Source: Spirochaetales bacterium (GTDB lineage: Bacteria; Spirochaetota; Spirochaetia; SZUA-6; RPPD01). Taken from it: a DNA stretch of 44,648 nt. Shown here piece after piece: positions 18,606 to 22,380 of the stretch (its first letter is position 1; each line of letters starts with the position of its first letter). The stretch is from NCBI GenBank assembly GCA_016929065.1, contig JAFGJO010000021.1, positions 1 to 44,648 of the forward strand. The letters are read 5' to 3'. A model generated the notes under the pieces. That model made no database searches. It was not told where the DNA came from and saw nothing but the letters and a program-made list of their open reading frames with translations. Both the position numbers and the translations under genes were made by a program.

Positions 18606-20048
18606 TCAGGTTAATGTATTCACCAGTTCATTCGCTTTTGCTGCAGCGGGTTTCGGCTCCAAAATGGACTGAAGGCCGGAAACATACTTTTTTTCCTGTC
18701 GCTGCCACTTTTTATTGAGCCTGTTCGCATACAAACCAATCACAAAGCCGATAAAACTTCCTGAAAAAAGTCTTTTGAAAATATTCTTAATGCTGTAGAA
18801 TCTTCCATGCGCTCTTATCTGCAGGTTCTGCAGCTGATAGGCAGTCATGTTCTTTGGAAGAAAAGTGACATGATGTGCGTCATATTTTTCCCAGTTGCGG
18901 TGAATCAGCCTGCCCTCATGCTCAATTTTATAATAAAGCGGGGTCCCCGGCAGCGGTGTCAGAATCAGGCATTGCACCGAATCAATTTTCTGTTTAATCG
19001 CAAAATCAACCGTGGATTCGATTGTCTCCGGCGTATCAGCATCAAATCCGAAAACAAACATGCCGTGAACAAATATCCCCTTTTTCCTGATTGCCTGAAT
19101 AGCGTATTCAATCTCCTCTGCTGATTGTGATTTTTTCATTTCTTTGAGAACTGCAGGATCGATCGATTCCAAACCGATAAACAACACCCTGCAGCCTGCC
19201 TTGTACATCAGATCAAGAAGTTCCGGGTCTTTTGCGATATCCGTTCTCACCTGGGTTGACCACTTGAATCGTAATCCCCTTGCGATCATCTCTCTCAGTA
19301 GTTCCTTGGTATGCCGCCTGTTCGCAGCGAAATTGTCATCATAAAAGAAGATCCAGTTTTTTTTCGGATTATACTGAAGCATTTCTTCAATAATTTTATC
19401 TGTTGACCGGTAGCGGTAGCGTTTTCCAAACATGCTGGTGACCGAACAAAAAGTGCAGTCAAACGGGCACCCGCGCGATGTCTGGATGGGGATTGTCCCG
19501 TTTTGATAAAAGTGGCGGGCTCCGTTTTTCCTTGTTCTGTTGATCAATGACAGGTCAGGCATGGGAAGTGAATTGATGTCGCATTCCGGCGGCCGTGTTT
19601 CATTGCAGATAATATTCCCGCTGTTACGAAATACCAGATTGGGAATCTGCTGTAACGGTGTGCCCATTTTTAAGGATTCAAGCAGACTCATGAACGGAAT
19701 TTCACCTTCACCGACAATACAAAAATCAGCATGCTCCATTGCTTCCTGAACGAGAAATGAGACATGAGGACCTCCGATCACCACCGGAATCTCCCTCGAC
19801 CGGAAATAATCTCCAATGCGGTATGTCTGGTTTGCGGTTGTGGTAATGGTCGTCAACGCGACCAGATCACACATAATTTCCGAAGCGTACACCTCTTCTT
19901 CATCGATGAAGAGGACCTCCACCTCATATCCTGCATTTCTCGCGAGAGTGGCCAAAAGCACGTTTCCCAGCCGGGGCAGTTCATACCTTGTATAAATGTG
20001 CAGGTTTTGCGCTTTTGGCTCAATAAATACAACCTTTTTTAGATCCAT
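18606..20048 (-). CDS. B12-binding radical SAM enzyme, paralogue A
   Basis: This 480-residue cobalamin-dependent radical SAM (class B) enzyme has an N-terminal B12-binding Rossmann domain (about 1-140; GGPHVSFL and VGEGEIPFM) and a radical SAM barrel with CxxxCxxC at Cys194, 198 and 201 (RGCPFDCTFCSV). The barrel continues with FFYDDNFA, WSTQVRTDI and GLES. The basic C-terminus (RFYSIKNIFKRLF, LNKKWQRQEKK) may touch the membrane. Relatives methylate or couple unreactive carbons, for example in hopanoid, pigment or membrane-lipid synthesis; the substrate here is unknown. The start is the ATG at 20048 with GGAGG about 6 bases upstream. It is homologous along its whole length to the next gene, which has the same length and Cys positions. 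Confidence 0.9.
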   Translation of the reverse strand: MDLKKVVFIEPKAQNLHIYTRYELPRLGNVLLATLARNAGYEVEVLFIDEEEVYASEIMCDLVALTTITTTANQTYRIGDYFRSREIPVVIGGPHVSFLVQEAMEHADFCIVGEGEIPFMSLLESLKMGTPLQQIPNLVFRNSGNIICNETRPPECDINSLPMPDLSLINRTRKNGARHFYQNGTIPIQTSRGCPFDCTFCSVTSMFGKRYRYRSTDKIIEEMLQYNPKKNWIFFYDDNFAANRRHTKELLREMIARGLRFKWSTQVRTDIAKDPELLDLMYKAGCRVLFIGLESIDPAVLKEMKKSQSAEEIEYAIQAIRKKGIFVHGMFVFGFDADTPETIESTVDFAIKQKIDSVQCLILTPLPGTPLYYKIEHEGRLIHRNWEKYDAHHVTFLPKNMTAYQLQNLQIRAHGRFYSIKNIFKRLFSGSFIGFVIGLYANRLNKKWQRQEKKYVSGLQSILEPKPAAAKANELVNTLT

Positions 20049-20064
20049 TGTTTGCCTCCAATTA

Positions 20065-20115
20065 TATACGTATACTGTCACTTTAAAGGTATTCCTATAC
20101 GTATATTAATGTCAA
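20065..20115 (-). promoter_or_regulatory. Promoter and twin palindromes of radical SAM gene A
   Basis: Minus-strand TTGACA (20110-20115) is followed by two copies of the perfect palindrome TATACGTATA, at 20096-20105 and 20065-20074, with centres 31 bp apart (about three helical turns). The first sits between -35 and a poor -10 (TACCTT near 20086-20091), the second near the expected transcription start. The spacing suggests cooperative binding of a dimeric regulator on one face of the helix. Confidence 0.6.
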
Positions 20116-20177
20116 CTTTTTTTTTCGTTTTAATTCAATAAAAAGGAAGAAACGATATTCGATTGGGCAATAAAAAA

Positions 20178-20204
20178 AACCCGCAGGTATTGAACGTGCG
20201 GGTT
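20178..20204 (-). terminator. Terminator of radical SAM gene B
   Basis: AACCCGCA (20178-20185) pairs with TGCGGGTT (20197-20204). Plus-strand A8 (20172-20179) on the left gives a U-tract for minus-strand transcription. It lies between the two radical SAM genes, so these are separate transcription units. Confidence 0.88.
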
Positions 20205-20257
20205 TCCAATTTGGCTATATTATATAGAGACAAAAACTTCTTCTAAAAGGTTTGTGT

Positions 20258-21700
20258 TTATGAAACTGATTGTGTAACTGTCTTTACTTCCCGGACCCTT
20301 GTTTTCATAAGAAGCTTGTTCTTGAGCAAAGAAAGATAATTCTCTTCGTGTTTTTTCCACTTTTTATTGAGAAAATGCGCATACAACCCGATGATCACAC
20401 TTCCAAATCTTCCCCGGAGGAGCCTTTTGAAAATATTCCCAATGCTGTAAAATCTTGAATGCGCTTCTATTTGCGCTTGCTGAAGGTCAAATGCAGAAAT
20501 ATTTTTTGGTTCAAATGTGATATGATGTGCATCAAACTTGTCCCATTCGTGATGAAGCAGCCGCCCCTCTTTCTCAATTTTATTATAAAACGGCGTTCCC
20601 GGTAACGGAGTCAGCACCATAAATTGTACAGTGTCAATCTTTTTATCAATTGCAAACCGGGCAGTTGTTGCTATTGTCTCCGGAGTGTCTGCATCAAAAC
20701 CAAAAACAAACATTCCGTGCACATGAATTCCTTTTTTCCGGATGGCCTTGACAGATATTTCTATATCTTCTGCAGATTGTGATTTTTTCATTTCCTTTAA
20801 TACAGCTGAATCAACAGACTCCAGACCGACATAGACAACCCTGCAGCCTGCTTTGTGCATCAAATCCAAAAGTTCAGGGTCCTTGGCGATATCAGTTCTC
20901 ACCTGTGTCGACCACTTGTATTTTACATCAAGCTTGATCATTTCACGAAGAAGTTCCTTTGTCCTTTTTTTATGAGCTGCAAAATTATCATCATAGAAAA
21001 AAATCCAGTTCTTTTTGGGATCATACTGCAGCAATTCTTCAATAATTTTCTCGGTTGACCGGAACCGGTACTTCTTTCCAAACATTCCAGTCACCGAACA
21101 AAAAGTACAATCAAAGGGACATCCCCGCGATGCCTGAATCGGAATCATCTTGTTTTGGAACAATCCAAGTTTCTGTTTCTTCTTTCCCTTATTTACCAAT
21201 GAAATATCAGGCATGGGAAGCGTATCCAGGTCACACTCAGGATTTGACATACTGTTTTTTACGGTTTTGCCGTTATTTTTATATATCAGGTTAGAAATTC
21301 CCTCCAATCCTTTATTTGAATTTAATGCCTCAAGAAGCTGCATGAAGGGCGTTTCACCCTCTCCTACAATACAGAAATCTGCATGCTCCATCGCTTCATC
21401 GCTCAGAAACGAAACATGAGGGCCGCCGATCGCCACAGGAATATTTTTTCCCCTGAAATAATCACAAATACGATACGCAGAAAGGGCAGTGGTTGTAATG
21501 GTCGTGACTGCAGCAAAATCACAGTCTATACTCCCCGTATATACTTCTTCTTCGTTCACAAACAAAACTTCAACGTCATACCCGGCGTTTTTTGCCATTG
21601 TTGCAAGCAGTACACTTCCCAAACGCGGTAATTCATATCTGCTGTAAATATGTAAATTTTCTGCTTTCGGCTCGATAAATACAATTTTATGGATTTTCAA
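20258..21700 (-). CDS. B12-binding radical SAM enzyme, paralogue B
   Basis: This 480-residue protein parallels paralogue A throughout, with a B12-binding domain (GGPHVSFL, VGEGETPFM) and Cys194, 198 and 201 (RGCPFDCTFCSV). The start is a TTG at 21700: GGAGG lies 6 bases upstream, the first residues align with the ATG start of paralogue A, and the nearest ATG (at the GGAATGAG) is out of frame. Differences cluster at the N-terminal helix region, the 150-190 linker (here Lys-rich, KGKKKQK) and the C-terminal tail. It has its own promoter and terminator. Function is unknown; a paired role on related substrates, or two successive steps, is possible (inference). Confidence 0.9.
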   Translation of the reverse strand: MKIHKIVFIEPKAENLHIYSRYELPRLGSVLLATMAKNAGYDVEVLFVNEEEVYTGSIDCDFAAVTTITTTALSAYRICDYFRGKNIPVAIGGPHVSFLSDEAMEHADFCIVGEGETPFMQLLEALNSNKGLEGISNLIYKNNGKTVKNSMSNPECDLDTLPMPDISLVNKGKKKQKLGLFQNKMIPIQASRGCPFDCTFCSVTGMFGKKYRFRSTEKIIEELLQYDPKKNWIFFYDDNFAAHKKRTKELLREMIKLDVKYKWSTQVRTDIAKDPELLDLMHKAGCRVVYVGLESVDSAVLKEMKKSQSAEDIEISVKAIRKKGIHVHGMFVFGFDADTPETIATTARFAIDKKIDTVQFMVLTPLPGTPFYNKIEKEGRLLHHEWDKFDAHHITFEPKNISAFDLQQAQIEAHSRFYSIGNIFKRLLRGRFGSVIIGLYAHFLNKKWKKHEENYLSLLKNKLLMKTRVREVKTVTQSVS

Positions 21701-21717
21701 CTCATTCCTCCGATTTT

Positions 21718-21761
21718 CTATACGTTGTATTTAATCTATACGTATAGGTATAGTGTGTCAA
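21718..21761 (-). promoter_or_regulatory. Promoter and palindromes of radical SAM gene B
   Basis: Minus-strand TTGACA (21756-21761), a 17-base spacer and TAGATT (21733-21738) form the promoter. A perfect 12-bp palindrome CTATACGTATAG (21736-21747) lies in the spacer and touches the -10. A degenerate copy, CTATACGTTGTAT, lies at 21718-21730, and a further half site, GTATAG, at 21748-21753. The core matches that of gene A, so one regulator probably controls both. Confidence 0.6.
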
Positions 21762-21951: not shown

Positions 21952-22380
21952 ATGGAAAAATTGTTTGTGTGTCAGGTATGCGGACATATTGAATTCGGCG
22001 CTGCACCGGATAAATGTCCGGTATGTTTTGCATCCAGGGACAAATTTGCAGAAAACGCAGATGCATTAATGCCAGCGGAAAAGGAAGGAAATGAGAAACA
22101 TGTACCCGTAATACTGGTCACAGACGACTGCGGACTCATTCCTGATGTTTGCCGCGATATTCACATCAAAGTTGGTTCCACACCCCACCCAATGACCGAT
22201 GACCACTGGATAAACTGGATCGATGTTTATGTCAATAAGAAATATTCCGGTCGGTCTTATCTCCAGCCTAATATGCAGCCGGCAGTGAGCATTCACGTAA
22301 AAAAAGAGAATACCGGCGTACTGACGGTAATTGAACATTGCAACAAACACGGGAGCTGGATGGCACAAGCCCAACTGTAG
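21952..22380 (+). CDS. Superoxide reductase (desulfoferrodoxin-type) with zinc-ribbon/rubredoxin-like N-terminus
   Basis: It reduces superoxide to hydrogen peroxide in anaerobes. Residues 1-26 carry two CxxC pairs (Cys7/10, Cys22/25), a short rubredoxin-like site. The catalytic domain contains EKHVPVI (His50), HPMTDDHW (His79 and His85) and HCNKHGSW (Cys130 and His133), the complete 4-His/1-Cys centre; Lys49 and Glu48 sit at the usual active-site position. The ATG follows AAGGAGG by 5-6 bases. The 142 residues fit the family. Electrons would come from rubredoxin or rubrerythrin partners not seen in the window. Confidence 0.94.
   Translation: MEKLFVCQVCGHIEFGAAPDKCPVCFASRDKFAENADALMPAEKEGNEKHVPVILVTDDCGLIPDVCRDIHIKVGSTPHPMTDDHWINWIDVYVNKKYSGRSYLQPNMQPAVSIHVKKENTGVLTVIEHCNKHGSWMAQAQL

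Follow-up and report, generated by a model that had tools for sequence, protein, structure and literature searches.

A conserved 16-bp operator connects twin B12-binding radical SAM genes of a Spirochaetales bacterium with a predicted MerR-repressed regulon

Many radical S-adenosylmethionine (SAM) enzymes with a B12-binding domain are orphans, and guessing their substrates is difficult because the genes are often found outside recognisable pathways. Two such genes, gene A and gene B, lie in tandem on contig JAFGJO010000021.1 (44,648 nucleotides, assembly GCA_016929065.1; this whole stretch is referred to as the window) of a Spirochaetales bacterium, and a palindrome is common to their promoters. 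This raised the question of which other genes of the bacterium carry the same palindrome and which regulator reads it. The answer that we favour, with a probability of roughly 0.7, is that the A/B tandem duplicate would be part of a regulon of four promoters repressed by P0006, an unlinked protein of the MerR family, at the 16-bp operator TATACSTATASGTATA.

Gene A (18606..20048, minus strand) and gene B (20258..21700, minus strand, with a TTG start) each code for a B12-binding radical SAM protein of 480 aa with a CxxxCxxC motif at 194/198/201. The two proteins were 68% identical over 463 aa, and Cys194, Cys198 and Cys201 were invariant in both and in eight orthologues (10 proteins aligned). 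A preliminary description, made from the sequence, had reported two full-length paralogues with these cysteines, separate promoters and a terminator between the genes, and all of this was borne out. The -35 box TTGACA of gene A (20110..20115, minus) is followed after an 18-bp spacer by a putative -10 box TACCTT (20086..20091, minus), and that of gene B (21756..21761, minus) after a 17-bp spacer by TAGATT (21733..21738, minus). An intrinsic terminator, consisting of a hairpin and a T-run, lies 3' of gene B and between both genes (20170..20207, minus); a simple terminator scan did not list the 20207-20170 hairpin, which is well supported by folding (-17.9 kcal/mol, z -4.2).

The spacings of the palindrome were likewise as first described. 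In gene A, operator A1 (TATACGTATAGGAATA, one mismatch to TATACSTATASGTATA; 20090..20105, minus) occupies the -35/-10 spacer, and operator A2, a second TATACGTATA (20065..20074, minus), follows at a distance of 31 bp and is close to the ribosome-binding site. In gene B, operator B (TATACCTATACGTATA, the exact 16-mer; 21737..21752, minus) is placed within the -35/-10 spacer; the 12-bp palindrome of this promoter reads CTATACGTATAG, and a degenerate second copy, reading TATACGTTGTA on the plus strand, is found at 21719..21729 (minus). The decamer TATACGTATA is perfect at 20065, 20096 and 21737 and occurs in the one-mismatch form TATAGGTATA at 21743. These four matches with up to one mismatch (0.56 expected in the window) all fall in the promoters of genes A and B.

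The genome of the window (G000) comprises 3.49 Mb, and about 4% of it is missing from the assembly. The 10-mer TATACGTATA occurred seven times in it, one copy being within a gene, against six for the reversed control, and thus it proves little by itself; the genome search with this 10-mer that had been advised, with random occurrence as the outcome that would speak against a regulon, would have misled. One of its four other copies, on contig C62, was preceded by TTGACACAACTATACC, nearly identical to TTGACACACTATACC of gene B, and a search for TTGACA-N0-16-TATACNTATA gave five matches at four promoters and none in the control. The common core of these promoters is the 16-bp palindrome TATACSTATASGTATA, which, with up to one mismatch, was found at exactly four places of the genome (three exact ones and a fourth) against one in the control, and all four are promoters: those of gene A, gene B, a gene on C62 and an operon on C60. 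These results supported the earlier proposal of a small regulon with a dedicated regulator encoded outside the window, and corrected the length of its operator from 10 to 16 bp. Sites with two mismatches were at background level (six versus nine in the control), and those at C14 and C65 were therefore rejected as regulon members. Perfect 10-mers at C3 and C38, which have no 16-bp context, and at C60:39647, inside a gene, were also rejected, and the 10-mer was abandoned as a regulon finder for its lack of specificity.

The C62 gene codes for an alpha/beta-hydrolase of the DUF6051 family (PF19519, 353 bits); the DUF6051 proteins compared here matched this model over their full length with 353-397 bits (cut-off 27). 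The C60 operon codes for a ferredoxin, followed by the subunits of a 2-oxoacid:ferredoxin oxidoreductase, for which the Pfam models POR_N, POR and TPP_enzyme_C were above cut-off. Its alpha subunit is of the VorB type (534 bits; NF005507 cut-off 399), and the beta and gamma subunits matched family models below their NCBIfam cut-offs.

Conservation of the operator was followed in 26 genomes of the order and one of the class. Among these 27 genomes, exact copies of the 16-mer were found only in G000, G001 and G002, which belong to the same family, and only before radical SAM, oxidoreductase or DUF6051 genes; the oxidoreductase operon carried the operator in all three, which represent three genera. 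In promoters of radical SAM orthologues from the same family and from a second family of the order, the operator followed the TTGACA/T box at 3-5 bp: it was present in G002, in G014 and in two paralogues of G001 (one lacking a clear -35 box), and degenerate in G009. The G002 promoter shares the layout of gene A, the second copy following at about 31 bp. Within stretches of 6-20 kb around the orthologues, the operator was confined to those promoters; it was absent from the radical SAM orthologue promoters of G003 and G018. Counts of one-mismatch 16-mers in G020, G021, G022, G067, G006 and G008 matched those of controls, and the sites in G020, G021, G022 and G067 and at C5 and C36 of G002 were discarded, being, where inspected, intragenic or devoid of a link to the pathway. 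Besides these other genera, Ignavibacteriales and Aminicenantes also keep the site ahead of the enzyme gene and/or the oxidoreductase operon. In another spirochaete family (f6), the operator precedes a MerR gene, and next in the operon comes a DUF6051 gene, whose product is 43% identical to the C62 protein; this operon was seen at L083 (3769-5759) and L084. No close radical SAM homologue was found in the f6 genomes carrying it, so that the enzyme may be dispensable for the circuit there.

Independently of the f6 operon, a regulator became apparent when 80 named homologous radical SAM loci were compared for neighbouring genes, a MerR of the same group being the commonest neighbour. In 22 of the 80, which come from other phyla, a MerR gene coding for a protein with two winged helix-turn-helix (HTH) domains is placed directly upstream of the radical SAM gene, usually with an overlap of about 8 nt. 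The operator was present up to 150 bp upstream of 12 of these 22 MerR genes when two mismatches were allowed (0.01 expected by shuffling), and of 15 with three (0.15 expected). In four Aminicenantes genomes (G061-G064), the only genomic sites with up to one mismatch were those of the MerR-radical SAM operon, as positions compared by hand showed. In an Ignavibacteriales genome (G065), the exact operator occurred in only two places, the radical SAM promoter and a separate MerR-DUF6051 operon, so that regulator, hydrolase and enzyme are tied together by the operator alone. In the genomes of the order, the 22 MerR-radical SAM loci and G065, MerR genes were the only regulator genes found under the operator, and a TetR-type regulator, which had been our first guess, was dropped once MerR was found there. 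The genes, the operator with its conservation and the MerR-radical SAM operons of these phyla can all be read from sequence.

The only homologue of this MerR group that we found in the genome of the window was P0006 (about C64:34187-34843, minus), whose gene is unlinked to genes A and B and lies between a small conserved open reading frame next to groEL and yajC-secD-secF. P0006 is 47-57% identical to the products of genes at the same position in G001, G002 and G004, and has in common with the operon-linked MerR proteins the recognition element RTIKxWEEKGxxxPxxRxxGGFRLY. Assignment of the group to the MerR family is based on two stretches matching PF13411, on PF00376 and on the structural model of P0006, which had a mean predicted local distance difference test score of 83 and a predicted template-modelling score of 0.51. 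In the model, residues from about 4-68 and 86-156 form two MerR-like winged HTH domains, and a long helix at the C-terminus (171-217) presumably mediates dimerisation; a dimer with four HTH domains would suit the period-6 TATACG repeats and the paired sites 31 bp apart. No ligand domain was visible in P0006 or in P0003, a MerR of the operon-linked type, which contains no Cys. The MerR group was present in seven of the 26 genomes of the order (G000, G001, G002, G004, G009, G007 and G017), six of which carry the operator, and of the 19 genomes without it only G014 has the operator; by our own arithmetic from these counts, the hypergeometric probability of this overlap is about 2e-4, shared ancestry being ignored. 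Among 218 genomes drawn across the phylum, the group was found in that of the window only. Being the sole homologue found in its genome and co-occurring with the operator, P0006 is the best candidate for the regulator, and its binding to the operator is predicted on these grounds. The open reading frame that separates groEL from the MerR gene codes for about 98 aa and is kept in G000, G002 and G004 (L107, 6905-7198, minus); its G000 copy matched no Pfam or NCBIfam model.

How P0006 would act can be judged from the promoters. Most operator promoters have a 17-bp spacer, and those of the window's own genome have 17-18 bp and a TAnnnT -10 box (TAACTT with 17 bp at C60 and TATATT with 18 bp at C62, both read by eye). 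MerR activators, by contrast, act on spacers of 19-20 bp (PMC8113463). MerR-type repressors exist, such as CvkR (PMC9938897), and in the Aminicenantes operons the operator covers -10/+1. Optimal spacers of 17-18 bp, together with the known MerR repressors and the Aminicenantes site, led us to predict repression. That the same MerR protein would instead be a classical activator, distorting the promoter upon binding its signal, agrees with the location of the operator, since classical MerR promoters also carry it in the -35/-10 interval; the spacer lengths and the Aminicenantes site, in a position typical of repressors, argue against it, and we hold it to be quite improbable.

In the regulon that we propose, P0006 would bind TATACSTATASGTATA within the 17-18-bp spacer and, at promoters that have one, also the second copy further downstream by about 31 bp. 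It would do so at the promoters of gene A, gene B, the C62 DUF6051 gene and the C60 oxidoreductase operon, and would keep them repressed until released by a signal. De-repression would then raise the radical SAM enzymes, the DUF6051 hydrolase, the ferredoxin and the 2-oxoacid:ferredoxin oxidoreductase together, and the oxidoreductase could plausibly supply reduced ferredoxin and/or acyl-CoA for the radical SAM reaction. Turnover with ferredoxin is known for BchE, another radical SAM enzyme of the B12 kind (PMC13142503), so the co-regulated oxidoreductase could provide the A and B proteins with low-potential electrons. Autoregulation is predicted in those phyla where the MerR gene sits in the operon.

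Several observations weigh against this regulon under P0006. The P0006 gene has no operator of its own, and its product is only about 30-36% identical to the operon-linked MerR proteins, so that P0006 might have diverged from them and act on a different target; no second member of the group was found in the genome, of which about 4% is missing. Co-occurrence of MerR and operator is partly phylogenetic and has exceptions on both sides: G004 has the MerR gene and no site was seen at its radical SAM gene, and G014 (69% complete) has the site and no MerR gene was found in it. Several -10 assignments are weak; and that P0006 is the binder, that it binds and represses, that a signal releases it and that the oxidoreductase serves the reaction are predictions. 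Another protein might thus bind the operator, either a MerR closer to the P0003 type, encoded in the missing part of the genome, or an unrelated factor. The divergence of P0006, its housekeeping locus and the perfect operators seen where a P0003-type MerR adjoins the target (L144, L204) speak for this; we consider it unlikely, given that P0006 was the only such homologue found, that throughout the order it tends to occur together with the operator and that only MerR genes were found as regulators under the operator. Nor do we give much weight to a regulator-free origin, in which the palindrome would be a passive relic of the duplication of gene plus promoter or a quirk of the promoter: A and B are indeed sister duplicates and the 10-mer alone is not enriched, but the 16-mer is seen again at two unrelated promoters of this genome and, in other phyla, ahead of orthologues and of MerR operons, which makes this explanation very improbable. 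P0006 as repressor of four promoters remains the reading that we prefer.

What the radical SAM enzymes make was approached through their families. Matches to PF04055 (Radical_SAM, 87-89 bits) and to the B12-binding domain PF02310 (53-55 bits, cut-off 32), and fold matches to MgmA, TsrM, AprD4 and OxsB, supported the class B (B12-domain) identity given earlier to both radical SAM proteins. The likeness to lipid, hopanoid or pigment enzymes that had also been suggested remained a resemblance only: scores were far below cut-off for HpnJ (TIGR03471, 163-168 bits versus 577.6), BchE (TIGR02026, 151-169 versus 481), HpnR (TIGR04367) and the ladderane radical SAM protein (TIGR04072; both 109-121, versus 650 and 360), and PhpK was also below its cut-off of 600 bits. 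A membrane-spanning lipid synthase (Mss/Tes) was considered for the similar-looking taxonomic spread (PMC11868695), and a Tes structure was absent from the listed sequence matches and the 50 fold matches shown. A possible, though doubtful, function of the regulon is to produce or alter a membrane lipid, which the radical SAM enzyme would tailor; this would be compatible with the proposed regulation. The VorB-subfamily alpha subunit, above its cut-off, would be a source of branched acyl-CoA; DUF6051 keeps a catalytic triad, with a lipase-like guess (PMC11878206); long C-terminal helices are predicted for the enzyme; and a PAQR/hemolysin III-like gene lies close to the radical SAM gene in L115, L118 and L183. 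On the other side, the regulon contains no gene for fatty-acid or phospholipid synthesis, the enzyme scored below the HpnJ, HpnR and ladderane cut-offs as given above, and no structure of a tetraether synthase stood among its listed matches.

The tree paired A with B at full support, inside a spirochaete clade beside the MerR-linked clade, and the radical SAM gene G001_C8 sits in the same gene neighbourhood; A and B are thus most simply explained as a lineage-specific tandem duplication at an ancestral site. A rubredoxin-domain superoxide-reductase-like gene (21952-22380, plus) is divergent to gene B, and the order radical SAM, superoxide-reductase-like, AddB-like, FecR-like and CorA-like gene is also kept in G001 (L054), which suggests a stable neighbourhood. 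Further families of the order and of the class have a second, operator-free clade of B12 radical SAM relatives, with 41-43% identity (L026, L027, L028, L029, L033, L034). The L115 contig is filed as Candidatus Prometheoarchaeum, with a radical SAM gene inside the spirochaete clade, and is probably misbinned or the result of a transfer. The PAQR/hemolysin III-like membrane protein gene is directly downstream of the radical SAM gene in L118 (2390-3046) and L183 (7468-8118). Near the radical SAM homologues of deltaproteobacterial metagenome-assembled genomes (L130, L143, L145 and others), mtnA-like, moeA-like and uvrA-like genes recur, and the mtnA-like gene could be related to salvage of SAM by-products.

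Taken more broadly, we tentatively picture a conserved anaerobic circuit spanning several phyla: a MerR repressor with two HTH domains would sense a signal and switch on an uncharacterised B12 radical SAM modification, a ferredoxin oxidoreductase as its electron donor and a DUF6051 hydrolase, most likely for building or remodelling an undescribed lipid or cofactor. The parts are ordinary and their combination is new: in the open-access literature we found no description of a MerR-operator-radical SAM-DUF6051-oxidoreductase regulon, of the regulation of DUF6051 or of a MerR/radical SAM operator. A diagnostic 16-bp operator with a named candidate regulator offers a handle for listing partner genes in scattered loci across Spirochaetota, Aminicenantes, Ignavibacteriales and Neomarinimicrobiota, and allows a reporter-based search for the inducing signal. 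A MerR subgroup with two HTH domains is described, and the uncharacterised DUF6051 family gains a regulatory partner.

Among known systems, the closest solved structure to A and B, both by sequence and by fold, was MgmA, the methyl-coenzyme M reductase glutamine methylase (PDB 9ccb), at about 20% identity and with a methanogenesis context that is absent around A and B. The best-scoring NCBIfam models were HpnJ, BchE and PhpK, with 150-169 bits over most of the length. On the side of the regulator, the activators MerR, CueR, SoxR and CadR share with P0006 the winged HTH fold and an operator between -35 and -10, and differ from what is seen here in the 17-18-bp spacer, the Cys-free P0003 and the extra N-terminal HTH; no NCBIfam cut-off was reached. 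The fused homodimer type of HspR (NF047377) has two MerR-like domains per chain, as P0006 does, and P0006 matched it weakly, with 54 bits, far below the cut-off of 300. CvkR, the repressor of CRISPR-associated transposons, is of the MerR type, like the proposed regulator; going by its description (PMC9938897), it is set apart from P0006, which has two HTH domains per chain and for which another operator and other targets are predicted.

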